Positions 25,362 to 40,245 of a DNA stretch of 64,000 bases are shown here, in pieces. The stretch is from the NCBI GenBank assembly GCA_024280215.1, contig JAJRQO010000018.1:1-64000 (forward strand). The letters are read 5' to 3'. The notes beneath the pieces are model-generated. The model was not told the origin of the DNA, did no database searches, and saw nothing but the letters and a program-made list of their open reading frames with translations. How positions within the stretch are numbered: position 1 is the stretch's first letter; each line of letters opens with the position of its first letter. This DNA is from Candidatus Zixiibacteriota bacterium (GTDB taxonomy: Bacteria; Zixibacteria; MSB-5A5; GN15; FEB-12). The position numbers and the translations under genes were made by a program.

Positions 25362-28301
25362 ATGAGAATGGCAAAAGAACTGCCACAATTTGAATTCTTG
25401 GGGAAATTGGGTGTTGGAGGTACAGCCCAGGTTCACAAAGTTCGGACAGTACAACATCAAATTGCCGCCTTAAAGACTATACTTCATTCCGACAATATAA
25501 ATCAAGAAGAGTTCAAACTACTCGCTATTCGTGAACAACATCTACTTCAAGATATAAATTTCCCTGGTATCGTAAAAATCTATGATGTGCAAACAGAAGA
25601 GCCTTGTTATATATGCCTGGAATATTGTAGCGGGAACACATTGGAGACATACCATAAGATTGACAATTTACAGTCAGCTCTTAATATTTTGTCTTCTATA
25701 GCTATAAATCTTGAATTTCTCAATCTGAATTCACTTGTGCATGCGGATCTGAAACCTGATAATATTTTTATGCCTGAAGATATTACACTCTTTGCAACAG
25801 ACAAATTAACCTTCACAAAGCTATCAGACTTTTCTTTAGGTAAGTTTGAAGAAGAGGAACATTCCGTACGTGGTGGACTTGGAACTGTTGGTTATATGGC
25901 TCCTGAGACAATAAAAGAGAACATTGTTTCTCATCGTTCTGATTTATTTGCTTTTGGTGTTTTAGCATATCAAATGATAACAGGAGTGCATCCTTTTATT
26001 TCTGAAGATGCTGATCCGATGAAAATCAATAGCCGTATACTTGAAGAAACTCCTCCTCCTCTTTCAGATTTACGAAATGATCTACCAGATAAGTTCATAC
26101 AATTAATCAATCAACTAATGGAAAAAGACGCATCAAAACGTCCAAGTTCTGCTTGGGAAGTTTGCCAGACTCTTCGTCTTGCTGGGGCAACATATCCATT
26201 TGAAAAAGTTTTACATCCTAAATACGCTCTTAAATCACAAAAAGATTATATCTATAATTTAAAAGTTATCTCAAACAATCATGAAATAATTAATCGAGAC
26301 TCAAACCAAGACAATTCTCAATTGCGATTATTGTTAAGTTATAATTTTGATAAAAATAATTTGTATTATTCAGAGAGACAGTTTCACTTTAAAGATAACC
26401 CATTAGTCGCATCTTATTTATTCAGACAAACAATAAAACAATTTTTAAAATTGTCATATACAGAAAAAAAATCAATTATTGAATTATCATTGATTAACAA
26501 TGAACAAAATTTAGTTTCATCTCTTCTTCCTCATTTATTAAAACCTCAAACAGTTATAAGAACCTCAAAAAGATTAGCATCAGTAGCAGAAAGTGATAAC
26601 AAACATTATATCGCTGCTAATTTATATACACAAAGCGGCGAATTATTAAAAGCAGAAAACGCAGCATATCAGGCTGCTATGAGTTATAAGAATAAAAATG
26701 AAATAGATTCTGCTCTTAAACTACTCAACAGAGTAATTTCATTTGGTACTCTCTTAAACAGAAAGTTTGATATTAAATCCTTGATAATGGTCAAAGGAGA
26801 TATATTAAAAGATATTGGTGAAACAAGTAAAGCTGAAGAAGTGTATCGTAATCTAATAGATATTTATGGAGGGCAAAATGAGGACGAACTTCTTGCTGAG
26901 ACATATAAAGATTTGGGCGATTTATATAAAATAAAAAAGTTGCCAAATGAGGGAATTAAATCATTAAAAAAAGCCTTAGGAATTTATAAAAGAATTGGAA
27001 ATAAATTAGAGGTATCTAAAACCTACAACAATCTTGGTAATATATACATGATTGAAAACAGTTTAAAAACAGCTCTATCTTATTATCGTAAAGCATTAAA
27101 AGTACAAAGAAAACTTATAGCTCATGAAGAAGTAGCCTCGACATTAAATAATATAGCGGTCGTTTATGGTATGACTAACAAGTTTAAAAAGGCTCTCAAG
27201 ATATTTACAATATCCTTAACAATAAAAAAAGAGATTGGCAATAAAGGTGAAATAGCCCGAACATTAAATAATATAGGATACTGTTACGAAATAATAGGTG
27301 ATGCTCGAAATGCTGCTGAAGTTTTACACGAAGCCATGAGGTATAACAAAGAGATTGATAGTAAAGGTGAACTACTTTTCAATTTAGAAAACTTAACTGT
27401 CTTAATGTATTCAACCGGACAACTTAAAGAGTCAATTTCGTATCTTAAAGAAGGTATAAATTTAGCAATTGCTTTAAATAATAAACCTCATACAAGTATA
27501 TTCAGTCTTTATTTAGGTGCTGTTTTTATTCGTTTAGGTAAATTAACAGAAGGATTCAAACAATTTGAGTATGCTGAAAATATTTTAAAAACAATAGAAG
27601 ATAAATATTTATTAGCTCTTTTATATATAGAAAAGGCTCAGTTAGCAACTCTAATTAACAACAAACAGGACACTGTTAAATTACTTAATCTCGCTCATGC
27701 TATTTATAGTGATATAAAAGATAAAACTATACTAATCAAAGTAGTTTTGCTGAAGTTAACAATTTCCAATGACATTACACTCCAGCATGAAGCAGAGAAA
27801 ATTATTGACGAATTAAAATTAAAAAAAGAAAAATCAATTTTAAATGAACTGAAACTAAATCATTTCCTTTCTCATGACAGTTCTTTTGCAACACAGCAAC
27901 CATATAACGACCTTAAAAAATCTACATCTGCTTCAAATGAACATATTGATCAATGCCAATTTTTAACTACCTTAGCAAAATACGAACTCTCAAATAACAA
28001 CATTGCAAGAGCTTCTGAATTAGCAAACAAATCTATACAATTAGCTAAATCACGTGGGCTTGTATTTGATCATTTTCATGCTTTGGTTTTGTTGGGCGGA
28101 ATATTGAGAAACCAAAACGAATTAGAAAATTGTTATGCTGTTTATAAACAAGCATTTCAGATTGCTAAAGATATTTTTAATCAGTTAGAAAACGATGTCG
28201 ACAAGCAAGCATTTCAAAATAAAAAAGAGTTTATATACTTAGTTTCAGAGATTAAAAAGTTGTCAAAATTGATTGGACAAAAAAAAGAGCAGGTGTCATA
28301 G
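25362..28301 (+). CDS. Serine/threonine protein kinase with C-terminal TPR array
   Basis: 979 residues. Kinase domain at 1-270: glycine loop GKLGVGGTAQVHKV, AALK lysine, catalytic loop VHADLKPDNIF near 126 (Ala where most have Arg, so a non-RD type), metal motif DFS in place of DFG, activation-segment GTVGYMAPE, and HRSDLFAFGVLAYQMITG. The remaining 700 residues are helical repeats with clear TPR units (AKTYNNLGNIYMIENSLKTA-like, repeated about every 40 residues between 500 and 720). No membrane span is seen. It probably integrates protein-protein signals through the TPRs; the upstream histidine kinase is a likely partner. The 3' end overlaps a bidirectional terminator hairpin. Confidence 0.87.
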   Translation: MRMAKELPQFEFLGKLGVGGTAQVHKVRTVQHQIAALKTILHSDNINQEEFKLLAIREQHLLQDINFPGIVKIYDVQTEEPCYICLEYCSGNTLETYHKIDNLQSALNILSSIAINLEFLNLNSLVHADLKPDNIFMPEDITLFATDKLTFTKLSDFSLGKFEEEEHSVRGGLGTVGYMAPETIKENIVSHRSDLFAFGVLAYQMITGVHPFISEDADPMKINSRILEETPPPLSDLRNDLPDKFIQLINQLMEKDASKRPSSAWEVCQTLRLAGATYPFEKVLHPKYALKSQKDYIYNLKVISNNHEIINRDSNQDNSQLRLLLSYNFDKNNLYYSERQFHFKDNPLVASYLFRQTIKQFLKLSYTEKKSIIELSLINNEQNLVSSLLPHLLKPQTVIRTSKRLASVAESDNKHYIAANLYTQSGELLKAENAAYQAAMSYKNKNEIDSALKLLNRVISFGTLLNRKFDIKSLIMVKGDILKDIGETSKAEEVYRNLIDIYGGQNEDELLAETYKDLGDLYKIKKLPNEGIKSLKKALGIYKRIGNKLEVSKTYNNLGNIYMIENSLKTALSYYRKALKVQRKLIAHEEVASTLNNIAVVYGMTNKFKKALKIFTISLTIKKEIGNKGEIARTLNNIGYCYEIIGDARNAAEVLHEAMRYNKEIDSKGELLFNLENLTVLMYSTGQLKESISYLKEGINLAIALNNKPHTSIFSLYLGAVFIRLGKLTEGFKQFEYAENILKTIEDKYLLALLYIEKAQLATLINNKQDTVKLLNLAHAIYSDIKDKTILIKVVLLKLTISNDITLQHEAEKIIDELKLKKEKSILNELKLNHFLSHDSSFATQQPYNDLKKSTSASNEHIDQCQFLTTLAKYELSNNNIARASELANKSIQLAKSRGLVFDHFHALVLLGGILRNQNELENCYAVYKQAFQIAKDIFNQLENDVDKQAFQNKKEFIYLVSEIKKLSKLIGQKKEQVS

Positions 28302-28312
28302 ACCTGCTCTTT
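28284..28312. terminator. Bidirectional terminator at the kinase 3' end / peptide gene end
   Basis: Perfect 11-bp stem, AAAGAGCAGGT (28284-28294) with ACCTGCTCTTT (28302-28312) and a 7-base loop. On the minus strand it is followed by six T, a classic terminator 32 bases after the stop of the 24-codon ORF. On the plus strand the stem spans the kinase stop codon and the T run is short. Confidence 0.8.
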
Positions 28313-28343
28313 CAAAAAATAATTAAGTATTACTTTTTAATGA

Positions 28344-28418
28344 TTATTGACCACCACTAGACATGCGTGGAGCAATACGATCTTCGAGTTTTTCGATTGT
28401 CAATGTGTAATTTGTCAT
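28344..28418 (-). CDS. 24-residue peptide, putative substrate of the neighbouring PqqD-M50-HlyD protein
   Basis: Twenty-four codons ending in TAA. The sequence reads MTNYTLTIEKLEDRIAP and then RMSSGGQ. The ribosome site is exceptional: TTAGGAGGTGAT ends 4 bases before the ATG, with GGAGG at 7-base spacing, almost the full complement of a 16S 3' end. It lies in the loop of a 7-bp hairpin (AAATCAC / GTGATTT, 28420-28440). A promoter-like TTGACG-N16-TATTTT lies 84 bases upstream, and a strong terminator lies 32 bases downstream. The adjacent upstream minus-strand gene encodes a peptide-protease/exporter fusion, so this is probably a secreted or matured peptide. No database family is known to me; the LEDRIAP string resembles N-terminal LEDR-x-P motifs of some planctomycete surface proteins. 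Confidence 0.7.
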   Translation of the reverse strand: MTNYTLTIEKLEDRIAPRMSSGGQ

Positions 28419-28419
28419 G

Positions 28420-28440
28420 AAATCACCTCCTAAGTGATTT
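28420..28440 (-). promoter_or_regulatory. Shine-Dalgarno hairpin of the peptide gene
   Basis: On the minus strand AAATCAC-TTAGGAG-GTGATTT forms a 7-bp stem that presents AGGAG in its loop, ending one base before the ATG-proximal C. It could gate or promote very efficient initiation. Confidence 0.55.
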
Positions 28441-28634: not shown

Positions 28635-30947
28635 TTACCACATTGCCCAAAATTCAACCCGAATTATTGATGCGATGCGATGAATTATTAAATTATACAA
28701 AGATGTCCTACCAATTTCAATTTTCGCATAGCCTGTCATTCCTTTGCGAAGTATATCATTTTTATTTTCAATAACGACAGAAACATTAAAAGATGCTTTG
28801 TCATTCGCATCAACAATCGCATCACGAGGTATATGCACCACTTTACCCGAGAATACTTTTGTTGTATATGAACGTACTTTAATTTTAACCTCTTGGTTTA
28901 ATTTTAGCAAATCAATATCAAAATCTGAGACAGGTACTAACACTTCAACAGAGCTATTATCTAAGACCGATAAAAATTGAGAGTTATTTTGATTTATCAT
29001 TACCGTACCAGGTATGGTAGAAATTATAGACTGGGCATCTTTTTGTGTTTGTAAAAATATAAGTTTTGCGTTTTGTTTTTCTATTTGAGAAAGTATGACT
29101 GCTTCTTCTTCAGGTTTAGGAGGAGATTTCAAAAGCGAAAGTGTAGCTTTTTTATTTTGCAAGTCTGCTTTAGCAATTGCAGTTTCTGAAAATGCAGCTT
29201 CATACAAATCATTAGAAATAAGTTTTTTATCAACTAATTCTTTGAGACGTTTCTCATCACGAACTTTTTGTTCATGGACAGCTTTTGACGATGCAACGGC
29301 TGCTTCTGCTTCAAGGATTGCTTCTTTTTTCGGTGGTGATCTTAGAAGTGCTAAATCGGATTGGAGTTGTTCTAAAACAGAACCCTCTGAATCAATTTCT
29401 CTTGTGACTTGATTTGAGACAAGCACCGCAAGAGTATCGCCGATAGCTATGTGTTGTCCATCACGCACATACGGGATTAAATCTAAGGAACCAAGTTCGA
29501 GTGATGCCATTTGTATATAGCTTGTTTTTAATTTGGATTCAGCTCCACCCTGTTGAAACTTTTTCTCAAGCAAACCGAGTTCATTCAAAAGCAATGAGTA
29601 CTCAGCAATAGGTTCAATTTTTATTTCTCCAGAGACTCGTTGTTTCATCGGGACAAAAAACAAAACGATTATCAACAGAGCCATAACAACAATATAACTG
29701 ACAAGACGAAATGGTTTTTTCATAATATCCTTTAAATATTTAATATGCGTCACTAAACCGTTTGCTAATGCTTTGAAATTTTTTCGCATCGCAAACATCA
29801 AAAAGAGATATAGTAAAATTAAACCGATTGTACCCGTTTTTTCAAGCAAAAAGGAAGATAAAATAGAAAGAAAAAATATAATGATAAATAGTGTATATAC
29901 AGCCGCTAAAGTAGCATAAATTACATAAATACGTCGTTTTCTCTTGTCTACATCTATTTTTTCAATTGGCCAGCCAAGGACAATGCGTTTAAATAAGTTG
30001 CTGACATAATTAAATGACTTATCACGTAAGTTAGGAATTTCTAAAAAGTCAGAAAGCAGGTAGTACCCGTCGAGTTTAATTAGTGGGTTTAAATTAAAAA
30101 TTGCTGTGACCCATATAACTATAACTAAAATTTGTGAAATTTCATGTATAAATGATCCCGGGATTGTTAAACGCCAAATAATCATCGTAAATGCGAGTAG
30201 AATTATTTCAGAATATGGCCCCGCCCATGTAACTGCTAAACGGTGACTTTTTTTCTTGAACAACCAAGCATCAGAAATATCACAATAAAAACAGGGTTGG
30301 AAGTACATCAACAAAAACCCAAATTCGTTGACCTCTCCTCCGTATATACGACACATTATCGAATGAGCAAATTCATGTATGACAATCAAAACAAAAAATG
30401 CTGTCATGACTGTTACAATTGCACTTGCTGAATATAAATCAAAAAGAGAAACCGCAAAATTAGTATAGTTGTTAGCAAAAAGAATCAATCCAAAAGAGAT
30501 AAAAAGAAACTGTAGAAATAAACCAATTGGAGAATGAAAAGGTTTATATATTTTAGTACAGACATCCAAAGTTTTGCCAGGCTTGAACGCTTTGAATTTA
30601 ATGAATAAGAGTTTTGAGAAAAGTGATTTTCTTTTTTCATTACCGTAACTCTTTCGAGTTGTCGCTTGTTCGGAACGACTGTTCTCTAAGAAATATTGTG
30701 ACTCTAACAGCTCAACAAATTGCAGTACTGCCTTTGCGTCGATATTTGCATTAAATTTTTGACGAAATTTTTGTGCGATAGCATCGTATGATGTCACCCC
30801 ATCAAGTTGTGATATTAACCAAAACTCTGGAGCACGAAGCCTGAAATAATTTCCACGAATAGGGTCTTTGATATTAACAACATCGACTCCATCAACGACT
30901 GCATCGGACGTTACTAAATCATTCCGTAATTTAGCATAAGTTTCCAT
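28635..30947 (-). CDS. PqqD-M50 metalloprotease-HlyD fusion (peptide zinc metalloprotease/exporter-like)
   Basis: 770 residues in three parts. Residues 15-90 resemble a PqqD/RiPP-recognition domain (DPIRGNYFRLRAPEFWLISQLDG). Residues 135-430 are a polytopic M50 site-2-type protease with HEFAH at 191-195 and the second metal motif NPLIKLDG at 287-294. Residues 425-750 are a membrane-anchored HlyD-like adaptor with a long coiled coil, lipoyl-like halves and a beta-barrel end (GSVLEQLQSDLALLRSPP, LNQEVKIKVRSYTTKVFSG). The layout resembles YydH-type 'putative peptide zinc metalloproteases' that act on RiPP precursors. No radical SAM or ABC transporter is adjacent. The likely substrate is the 24-residue peptide encoded 216 bases downstream on the same strand. 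Confidence 0.8.
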   Translation of the reverse strand: METYAKLRNDLVTSDAVVDGVDVVNIKDPIRGNYFRLRAPEFWLISQLDGVTSYDAIAQKFRQKFNANIDAKAVLQFVELLESQYFLENSRSEQATTRKSYGNEKRKSLFSKLLFIKFKAFKPGKTLDVCTKIYKPFHSPIGLFLQFLFISFGLILFANNYTNFAVSLFDLYSASAIVTVMTAFFVLIVIHEFAHSIMCRIYGGEVNEFGFLLMYFQPCFYCDISDAWLFKKKSHRLAVTWAGPYSEIILLAFTMIIWRLTIPGSFIHEISQILVIVIWVTAIFNLNPLIKLDGYYLLSDFLEIPNLRDKSFNYVSNLFKRIVLGWPIEKIDVDKRKRRIYVIYATLAAVYTLFIIIFFLSILSSFLLEKTGTIGLILLYLFLMFAMRKNFKALANGLVTHIKYLKDIMKKPFRLVSYIVVMALLIIVLFFVPMKQRVSGEIKIEPIAEYSLLLNELGLLEKKFQQGGAESKLKTSYIQMASLELGSLDLIPYVRDGQHIAIGDTLAVLVSNQVTREIDSEGSVLEQLQSDLALLRSPPKKEAILEAEAAVASSKAVHEQKVRDEKRLKELVDKKLISNDLYEAAFSETAIAKADLQNKKATLSLLKSPPKPEEEAVILSQIEKQNAKLIFLQTQKDAQSIISTIPGTVMINQNNSQFLSVLDNSSVEVLVPVSDFDIDLLKLNQEVKIKVRSYTTKVFSGKVVHIPRDAIVDANDKASFNVSVVIENKNDILRKGMTGYAKIEIGRTSLYNLIIHRIASIIRVEFWAMW

Positions 30948-37428: not shown

Positions 37429-37456
37429 TTGACAATTACTGTCAGAACAGTATATT
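37429..37456 (+). promoter_or_regulatory. Promoter of the subtilase gene
   Basis: TTGACA (37429-37434), 16-base spacer, TATATT (37451-37456). The start near 37463 is inside the longest possible reading frame, which supports the ATG at 37525. Confidence 0.65.
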
Positions 37457-37524
37457 GTAATATACTACCGCCTTTTACAAACCTGTTAGAGTATCAGATA
37501 AGAACATTCGGAGAAAAGATTCAG

Positions 37525-40245
37525 ATGCATTCACAATTTTTGAAAACATTTTTTATTATATTTTGTTTTTTGATAATGACTGTACATGCGGTAGAAATTA
37601 AGCCTATACAGACGGTAAATTTATCTCCAAGAGTTCTTCCTCAAAAACCAAGTACGTCAATTATCAGTTCAGAGGCACAAATTTCAAGAGTTATTATAAA
37701 ATTTAAAGACTCATATAAAGTCCGTCTTCGCCAAGATAAAATTACCTCTCTCAAAGGGCTCTCTGTTCATAAAGCTGATTCCTATTTGAAACCATATATA
37801 GACAATCAAATGAGACGACTTTTTGAATCCAAATCCGAACAAAAACTTTCAAGAGAGAAAGAAATCTATCAATATCGTTCTCAAACAGAACTGGCTGACT
37901 TAAATTCATACTATACAATTGAGACTCAATCAATACTTGAGGCAACCCAGATTGTAGAGCGACTCAATAGTTTAGCTTCGGTTGAGCTTGCTTATGTCGA
38001 ACCAGCACCTTTGCTTGCGGGAGATATTGCCCCAACAACTCCTGATTACCAAGCCTCACAATTATATCTAAACTCTGCCCCAGATGGTGTTGATGCTATA
38101 TACGCTCATACTATTTTAGGTGGTGATGGAACAGGAATAACAATAGTAGATATCGAGGGTAACTGGCAAACGACCCACGAAGATTTGGATAAAGCGGCAA
38201 CTGGTTTTTTAGTGGGTGATGTTATCAACGACCAATCATGGCTCGACCATGGTACTGCGGTAATTGGAGTTCTAATTGGAACCGACAATAGCTATGGCAT
38301 AACAGGGATTTCCCCTGGAGTTGATTTGGGAATGGTCTCGATTGGTTCTTTATCTCCAGCTGAAGCAATATACAATGCTATTGATTCATTAGATGCTGGT
38401 GATATTATTTTAATCGAACTACAAGCTCCAGGACCTCTTCATAATTTTGCTGTTCGCCAAGACCAAGAAGGATATGTCTGTATGGAATATTGGCAGGCAA
38501 ATTATGACGCTATAAAATATGCATGGGCAAAAGGAATTATTGTTGTTGAAGCTGCGGGTAATGGTGGACAGAATTTTGACGACCCTCTTTATGGCTCACT
38601 CTTTGACACTAATTATAGAAACTCTCACGCACTTATTGTTGGAGCAGGTTTCCCAGCATCGTCACCATCTGATTTAGAAAGAGAATCGTATTCAAATTAT
38701 GGAGAACGTGTAAATCTGCAAGGTTATGGCTCTGAAGTATACACAACTGGTTACGGAGATTTATTCGATGGCAACGGTGACCTTGACCAGTATTATACTA
38801 CAAATTTTGGTGGCACATCATCGGCAGCACCAATTATAGCTGGTGCCGTAGCATCGCTTCAAGGATATTTGAAAGCAAATTTCGGATCGGCTCTTAGCTC
38901 AGACTATATACGTGACATTCTATATCAAACCGGAACAGCTCAACTTGGTAATAGCTCTGAACATATTGGACCAAGACCAAATTTAGATTCAGCTTTTAAT
39001 TCTGTTGCTGGGTTACCAACATTAACTGCCTCTCTTTCCTATATCGACACAACAATAGAAGCAGGGAATACATTTAATTTGGATGTCTGGCTATACAATC
39101 CATCATTAACAGAAAATATTGATTTCTATATTTATGACCGAGATTCTTCTGCTCGTGTTGCTGTTGCAAATTGGCTGGAAGTTTCAACTCAGACAGGTAT
39201 TGTCTATCCAAATGATTCAACCCTTCTCGGAGTTATAATCGATGCCACCTCATTGACCGAACGCTCAGTCAAATACCAAGGACTTTTGGAAATAGTTTGG
39301 GGACATGGTGCCGCATCGCTTGATTCCTTTTTGTTGATTCCTGTCTACCTTGAAGTACCGTGTACCGATTCATCATTTACGACGATTTCATCCGATGATT
39401 TATTTGGTCCTGCTTTTAACTGGATATCAGCAAAAGATTCTGGGATAAAAATTGACAACGCTTCATACTACAACCCAGGTCAAGCAGATATATTTGATGA
39501 TGGCTCATCGGGACCATTTGCTGTTGGATTTAATTTCCCATTTTATAAAAATTACTACGACTCTTTTTATGTAGGAATCAATGGTGCCTTATCATTTACC
39601 GATCCAAATGTCAATATTTCGGGAAAATTCACTACCCTTGAAATGCCAGGACTACCATTCAGTAGTTTTCTGACTCCATTTTGGAACGACTTATATCTTG
39701 ATACTGACGTTGTACCTGAAGCTGGAATATATATATATAAGAATCCGAGTCTTGATACGACTGTTATCGAGTGGTATCGAATAGTTGGTTTTGATGCGGG
39801 CGTAGATAGTTTACTTAATTTTGAAATTGTATTGACATCTGATGGTAATATTAGATATCAGTACAAATCTGTCGGTTCTTTTGGACTTGAAAATTCCGCC
39901 TTAGTCGGTATTGCTGAAATAGATTGTAATTCTTTTAGCCACGTAAATGCATCTGACTCTTTACTATTGATTCCTCATGATTTAGAAGCAATTCTTTTCA
40001 AGAATCATCTCTACTTCGGTCAGACTGGTGATATTAATGGTGCTGGTGATGGAGTTGATATTGCTGATTTAGTTTGGTTGGTTGATTATATGTTTGGAGG
40101 TGGAGCTTCTCCTCTGCCATACGACGCTGGTGATGTCGACTGTACAGGTGAAATTGATATCGCTGATTTAGTGTATTTAGTCAGTTATATGTTTTCAGGT
40201 GGTACAGAACCATGTGAAAAATGGCTTCATGATGGAAACAACTAA
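37525..40245 (+). CDS. Secreted S8 subtilisin-like protease with dockerin-type C-terminus
   Basis: 906 residues. The signal peptide starts at MHSQFLKTFFIIFCFLIMTV. A prodomain-like stretch (about 50-150) precedes the S8 domain: Asp near 209 (ITIVDIEGNWQTTHEDL), His near 241 (LDHGTAVIGVLIGT), Ser near 431 (GGTSSAAPIIAGAVASLQ). Next is a beta-rich middle (about 500-830) with a nidogen-like NFPFYKNYYDSFYVGINGAL segment. The end (about 835-895) is a pair of EF-hand-like dockerin repeats, GDINGAGDGVDIADLVWLVD and GDVDCTGEIDIADLVYLVSY. The start at 37525 has GGAG upstream and lies after the promoter; the longer frame from 37429 does not make a signal peptide at its end. This dockerin style is common in Zixibacteria-like genomes. 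Confidence 0.9.
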   Translation: MHSQFLKTFFIIFCFLIMTVHAVEIKPIQTVNLSPRVLPQKPSTSIISSEAQISRVIIKFKDSYKVRLRQDKITSLKGLSVHKADSYLKPYIDNQMRRLFESKSEQKLSREKEIYQYRSQTELADLNSYYTIETQSILEATQIVERLNSLASVELAYVEPAPLLAGDIAPTTPDYQASQLYLNSAPDGVDAIYAHTILGGDGTGITIVDIEGNWQTTHEDLDKAATGFLVGDVINDQSWLDHGTAVIGVLIGTDNSYGITGISPGVDLGMVSIGSLSPAEAIYNAIDSLDAGDIILIELQAPGPLHNFAVRQDQEGYVCMEYWQANYDAIKYAWAKGIIVVEAAGNGGQNFDDPLYGSLFDTNYRNSHALIVGAGFPASSPSDLERESYSNYGERVNLQGYGSEVYTTGYGDLFDGNGDLDQYYTTNFGGTSSAAPIIAGAVASLQGYLKANFGSALSSDYIRDILYQTGTAQLGNSSEHIGPRPNLDSAFNSVAGLPTLTASLSYIDTTIEAGNTFNLDVWLYNPSLTENIDFYIYDRDSSARVAVANWLEVSTQTGIVYPNDSTLLGVIIDATSLTERSVKYQGLLEIVWGHGAASLDSFLLIPVYLEVPCTDSSFTTISSDDLFGPAFNWISAKDSGIKIDNASYYNPGQADIFDDGSSGPFAVGFNFPFYKNYYDSFYVGINGALSFTDPNVNISGKFTTLEMPGLPFSSFLTPFWNDLYLDTDVVPEAGIYIYKNPSLDTTVIEWYRIVGFDAGVDSLLNFEIVLTSDGNIRYQYKSVGSFGLENSALVGIAEIDCNSFSHVNASDSLLLIPHDLEAILFKNHLYFGQTGDINGAGDGVDIADLVWLVDYMFGGGASPLPYDAGDVDCTGEIDIADLVYLVSYMFSGGTEPCEKWLHDGNN

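Follow-up and report, generated by a model that had tools for sequence, protein, structure and literature searches.

Daptide precursors carry the motif ELExMEAP at the end of their leader (PMC10036551), and the leader is removed by an RRE-site-2 protease that cuts after this motif (PMC10036551, PMC12338566). The protease (MpaP/DapP, NF041824) has an N-terminal RRE on an M50 protease and lies near a short precursor with a leader. A like arrangement, with a predicted leader, occurs in the 64,000-nucleotide stretch of DNA analyzed here (the window), from a Zixibacteria genome of 3.03 Mb, except that the fusion of the window has an extra HlyD part. Two described N-terminal motifs also bear comparison. 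The LEPR-XLL domain (NF012209, LEPR-8K) resembles the window peptide in its N-terminal LE.R followed by hydrophobic residues, and in its genomic tie to PqqD-M50-HlyD fusions; however, it opens proteins of thousands of residues and ends in LLSA where the peptide has AP. The NF012209 model gave no match at E<=10 to the window peptide or 41 relatives. Planc_extracel (PF07595), which models a motif, likewise short, at the N-terminus of extracellular proteins from Planctomycetes, matched nothing in the window's genome and none of the peptides. Periplasmic adaptors of the MacA/EmrA type share the fold of the fusion's C-terminal part, but here an RRE and a site-2 protease precede it in the same protein, and no TolC, ABC or MFS partner or transporter ATPase adjoins the window locus. 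Pfam and NCBIfam models gave no convincing match to the window peptide or its relatives, and literature searches turned up no account of this system.

A 24-residue peptide gene and its neighboring fusion

The initial annotation had placed a LEDRIAP motif in a 24-residue peptide beside a recognition/protease/export fusion. This arrangement holds: the open reading frame is real, and the fusion lies 217 nt upstream on the same strand. The features of the locus are as follows.

28344..28418 (-): peptide gene, MTNYTLTIEKLEDRIAPRMSSGGQ, 24 aa (coordinates include the stop); conserved family and selection
28368..28418 (-): predicted leader, residues 1-17, with the recognition motif YxLxIExLExRIAP; conserved columns and match to the daptide leader
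28347..28367 (-): tail RMSSGGQ, residues 18-24, predicted to be released; more variable than the leader, cleavage placed by analogy with daptides
28422..28431 (-): Shine-Dalgarno element, AGGAGGTGAT; AGGAGGT-like site in nearly all relatives
28283..28313 (-): intrinsic terminator 3' of the peptide gene; 12 pairs, fold z -5.8
28635..30947 (-): PqqD(RRE)-M50-HlyD fusion, 770 aa; conserved in 101 of 132 genomes
30678..30947 (-): RRE (PqqD-like) domain, residues 1-90; AlphaFold model, VIA-align
30363..30377 (-): site-2 protease HExxH (HEFAH), residues 191-195; invariant in 37 aligned proteins, including 5 from Proteobacteria
30066..30095 (-): site-2 protease NxNPxxxxDG, residues 285-294; N285, P288 and D293 unchanged across the same 37 proteins
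28713..29651 (-): HlyD/MacA-type periplasmic adaptor part, residues 433-745; PF16576/PF13437, Foldseek MacA E 2e-15

A perfect Shine-Dalgarno element and a strong terminator flank the peptide frame, both on its own strand. A profile built from relatives of the peptide recovered it from its own genome at E 2e-13, with no second match at E<=1. With purifying selection and relatives throughout the phylum, these features establish the 24-residue frame as a genuine gene. Chance composition, which the initial annotation had allowed as an explanation of the motif, is ruled out by the own-genome profile score, by selection (pN below pS) and by the distribution of relatives (103 of 132 Zixibacteria genomes at E<=1e-3, against only 3 of 98 in another phylum).

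The recognition domain of the fusion scored 12.4 with the Pfam PqqD model, under the gathering score of 23.4; the corresponding fusion of an Armatimonadetes genome (G132) scored 26.6, above it. When the structural model was compared with the PDB (VIA-align), it was closest to RREs solved with leader peptides, with Z 11.1 to a lasso B1 protein with its leader peptide (6jx3_B, 83 residues, rmsd 2.4) and Z 10.2 to TbiB1 with leader, and gave Z 8.6 to PqqD; residues 1-90 are thus predicted to fold as an RRE, with a three-strand, three-helix winged fold. The M50 domain was recognized at 27.6 bits (threshold 27.2), and Foldseek found the HlyD/MFP adaptor fold (beta-barrel, lipoyl, hairpin) in the C-terminal part.

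Residues 31-388 of the fusion matched the daptide leader peptidase model NF041824 at E 6e-62, with 209.9 bits, under the curated cut-off of 300. The Zixibacteria leader motif [EV]LEx[RK][IV]AP aligns without gaps to ELExMEAP, keeping the spacing of L-E-x-x-x-A-P and differing at the M and E. As the daptide leader is cut after this motif, cleavage of the window peptide would be expected after A16-P17. Nevertheless, membership among the daptides is ruled out by the sub-cut-off score and by two further differences. The window peptide ends in Gln, and none of the 48 family peptides ends in the C-terminal Thr that is invariant in daptides; no oxidative decarboxylase, aminotransferase or methyltransferase of the DapB/C/D/M type, nor any other recognized modification enzyme, is encoded in the nine neighboring genes scanned. 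Most tails of the family have 6-8 residues, where daptides have a hydrophobic helix. Genes for two kinases, one a histidine and one a Ser/Thr kinase, and for a SpoIIE-type phosphatase are among the neighbors in the window. Elsewhere in the window, positions 37429-40245 (+) encode a subtilase-like secreted protein with C-terminal dockerin-like repeats (GDVDCTGEIDIADLVYLVSYMF).

The peptide family and its pairing with the fusion

The family consensus is MxxYxLxxEVLEARIAPxGxSxGGQ, in which a conserved part, Y.L.[IV]E.LE.[RK][IV]AP, precedes a short and more variable tail. Across 41 sequences, Y4, L6, L11, E12 and P17 are invariant. Of the LEDRIAP motif first proposed, L11, E12 and P17 are among these, but an exact LEDR is rejected as the defining motif: D13 varies and R14 may be K, giving the consensus LE[ADE][RK][IV]AP. 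An AGGAGGT-like site precedes nearly all of 48 peptides. Within the window's genus the peptide is under purifying selection (pN 0.05-0.19 vs pS 0.32-0.55), and in a set of 15 peptides with 8-residue tails, pN was 0.17 in the leader part and 0.34 in the tail. Most families end in SxGGQ; because this ending is fairly conserved, the tail is not a freely varying core. The family is kept in most of a phylum and has been overlooked by standard annotation because its genes are too short.

Most genomes carry one copy. In genus g30, tandem copies reach seven per genome: four to seven are clustered behind the fusion (seven in CP070674, L006:7488-9126; also G032, G075 and G077), with altered tails (SRYGAE, SKYGSSR). 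One database entry, QQUK01000187.1, is titled 'Calditrichaeota bacterium CLD4' and belongs to the window's Zixibacteria genus; it is the same contig as that of another genome in our set (G001), and its fusion is 67% identical.

DNA read around the fusions of families f1-f3 revealed a peptide of 22-35 residues on the same strand, 0.15-1 kb downstream, with most single-copy peptides at most 0.4 kb away. The initial annotation had asked for co-occurrence of motif and fusion, and this was found within the phylum. In the 132 genomes of the phylum (peptide called by profile at E<=1e-3, fusion at E<=1e-15), 96 had both genes, 12 had only one (peptide alone in 7, fusion alone in 5) and 24 had neither, among them several whole genera; the association is strong (Fisher p 1.7e-15, shared descent and incomplete bins left uncorrected). 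Linkage alone is insufficient to account for the pairing, because family f4 keeps both genes although the fusion lies about 20-22 kb from the peptide, which remains beside the kinase gene and, in several genomes, also beside a ClC gene. Around the fusions of two fusion-only genomes (G105, G110) no peptide was found. Conversely, in G030, an assembly with gaps, the peptide sits between the ClC and kinase genes (L111, G030:C1:1859000-1875000) with an altered end (SNGRP) and no fusion was detected; this copy may be degenerating, its partner gene having been lost.

The same pairing occurs in Armatimonadetes. One genome (G132) encodes several peptides with leaders such as KKKYEFEVEEMEERIAP and variable tails ending in WR; two others (G137, G141) encode VYSLKVEVLEARIAP and a closely similar sequence, with a tail in which SAQGAAH is repeated. 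All three peptide-bearing genomes have the fusion, as does one of five sampled Armatimonadetes genomes lacking the peptide. Most of these peptide genes (L208, L210, L213, L214) directly precede a GAF-GGDEF, GAF-SpoIIE or HD-GYP gene, a neighborhood that suggests signaling.

Related tags on giant proteins

On plasmids, relatives of the fusion share an operon with a giant protein; TolC, an RND-type adaptor and a further HlyD protein are usually encoded there too. In Proteobacteria, all of the giant N-termini read contain LE.R (e.g., VEPIEPRILLSAD or ALEPRMMFDAA), and the tag takes the form E.[LIF]E.R.LLSA or ALE.R.[LM][FY]DAA. It was present on 12 of 12 fusion-adjacent giants, a count that covers those whose N-terminus was read, at loci chosen non-randomly among the better matches.

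Thalassospira: RRLHVEPIEPRILLSAD
Pseudosulfitobacter: GLHLETFEPRVLLSAD
Alisedimentitalea: VVEQLEPRLLLAAD
Kosakonia: AWSLEPRMLFDGA
Cupriavidus: TLALEPRLLYDAA
E. coli H6: RFALESRQLFDGA
Eleftheria: AWALEARLMFDAA
Burkholderia anthina: LLALEPRVVYDAS
A. lipoferum: AFALEPRFMFDAA
Variovorax: AMALEARYMFDAA
Niveispirillum: VLALEPRMMFDAA
A. thermophilum: KIVLEPRYVFDGA

Shuffled N-termini matched the pattern in 0.4% of cases. In the plasmid stretches, 6 of 336 open reading frames of at least 150 aa matched, all of them fusion-adjacent giants or proteins of a Paludisphaera plasmid; the latter, two Planctomycete proteins, were the only other matches. A profile of the giant N-termini, run over 13 fusion-bearing plasmids, matched 12, once each and twice in one, on the reading frames of giants (the A. 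thermophilum match falls in the 5' portion of a split one). The plasmids of Sinorhizobium and Rhizobium, absent from the set that built the profile, were among those matched; Magnetospirillum pMSR-1 has the fusion and no tagged giant by this profile. Of 5,426 E. coli genomes, 24 had the fusion and 24 the giant, with 23 in common, largely on clonal plasmids.

Several of these loci have features of their own. The E. coli giant (L176 and L181, the H6 chromosome; 21 plasmids) is an Ig-like protein with an N-terminal LESRQLFDGA, accompanied by TolC, two adaptors and the PqqD-M50-HlyD fusion. Rhodobacterales operons (L166, L178) carry a SecA-like 'translocase' gene directly behind the fusion. Annotated starts hide the tag in two cases: the true start of the Alisedimentitalea giant (L182, about 1.1 kb, - strand) lies upstream of the annotated Met, and in A. 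thermophilum (L190:949) two genes make up the giant.

The initial annotation had compared the peptide with an L-E-x-L-E-D-R-x-x-P motif of Planctomycete giants. In the one Planctomycete giant read, that likeness is partial: this 3,344-aa protein on the Paludisphaera plasmid (start ...ALEWLEARTLLAV) shares LE.LE.R, but ends in LL rather than x-x-P. Among the plasmids of Isosphaera, Singulisphaera, Planctopirus and Paludisphaera, clear tags were confined to Paludisphaera. The broader idea of the initial annotation, of one type of motif on free peptides and giant N-termini alike, gains support from the giants above, the fusion being encoded in both settings.

Could the likeness between peptide and giants be convergence on a short acidic-aliphatic motif? 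An hhalign comparison was gap-free (E 0.0023), but the shortness of the motif held its probability down to 12.7%, and the giants depart from the peptide at the A-P positions, where they have LL or FD. These points would fit convergence, but peptide and giants alike go with one rare type of fusion, the profile correctly predicted the two plasmids from which it had not been built, and the tag was on every fusion-adjacent giant read, against the two Planctomycete proteins among the other frames scanned. Intermediate forms also exist within Zixibacteria (FKLEQLEQRLLLSA, ELESLEERIMLSG). Some members of the phylum encode long LEPR-XLL proteins (G035, ITFEMLEPRLMLSAD; G030, FKLEQLEQRLLLSAT; G065, EPLEPRVLLSAD), which bridge the peptide and giant forms of the tag. 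We consider convergence improbable.

A proposed export route and its alternatives

The reading we favor, and hold to be reasonably probable, is that the neighboring fusion acts on the peptide as a minimal substrate, reading its leader and releasing its tail, and that giants elsewhere carry the same tag. Several observations weigh against it: the fairly conserved tail, the absence of a TolC or ABC/MFS partner beside the window locus, the low hhalign probability, the giants' departure at the A-P positions, and the peptide of G030 with no fusion detected. The motif YxLxIExLExRIAP in residues 1-17 would be bound by the N-terminal RRE, which would pass the leader to the fused intramembrane site-2 protease. 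By analogy with daptides, the protease would cut directly after Ala-Pro, and the tail RMSSGGQ might then be exported via the HlyD-like part and a TolC-type channel. Because the neighbors in Armatimonadetes and in the window are signaling-type genes, our first guess is that the released tail acts in signaling, most likely outside the cell or in the periplasm. A fusion of this kind would also read the forms E.[LIF]E.R.LLSA and ALE.R.[LM][FY]DAA that open giants elsewhere.

Instead of being a substrate, the free peptide might be a regulator that occupies the RRE and tunes the processing of larger tagged substrates; it would then stay unexported and would not need to be cleaved. The conserved SxGGQ tail, the single copy in most genomes and the few Zixibacteria that also have long LEPR-XLL proteins are consistent with such a role. 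Long tagged proteins are rare in the phylum, however: most genomes with peptide and fusion have none, the window's own among them, and the multi-copy peptides with differing tails of genus g30 and Armatimonadetes resemble precursors. We therefore regard regulation as doubtful. There is also little probability that the peptide is a RiPP or cofactor precursor whose GGQ tail is altered by an unlinked enzyme before the fusion removes the leader; the RRE, the daptide-type leader peptidase and the leader-tail anatomy would suit a precursor of this kind, but the nine scanned neighbors lack a recognizable modification enzyme and the peptides lack the daptide C-terminal Thr. That peptide and fusion are simply co-inherited neighbors, the peptide serving otherwise, for instance in concert with the Ser/Thr kinase next to it, is very unlikely: the peptide does stay by the kinase gene where the fusion has moved, and relatives within one phylum are non-independent, but the two genes co-occur unlinked over the phylum, pair again in a second phylum beside other neighbors, and the motif recurs on giants within fusion operons.

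Co-occurrence with the fusion gives good support to the idea of one tag carried by free peptides as well as large proteins, and this tag probably serves as an address label that directs both to a single export machine. It is common to LEPR-XLL-type giants and daptide leaders, each with the same type of RRE-site-2 protease. Whether LE-x-R N-termini are a general bacterial export address, read by RRE-site-2 protease-HlyD proteins on substrates from 24-residue peptides to proteins of more than 10,000 residues, we regard as evenly balanced. Leader processing by an RRE-site-2 protease is already known; the general export route, if proven, would make a new system. Until now only a named N-terminal domain, the LEPR-XLL motif gains a candidate reader, and RiPP leader recognition becomes tied to the export of giant adhesin-like proteins. 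A general LE-x-R route, if true, would mean protein export guided by a RiPP-type recognition domain.
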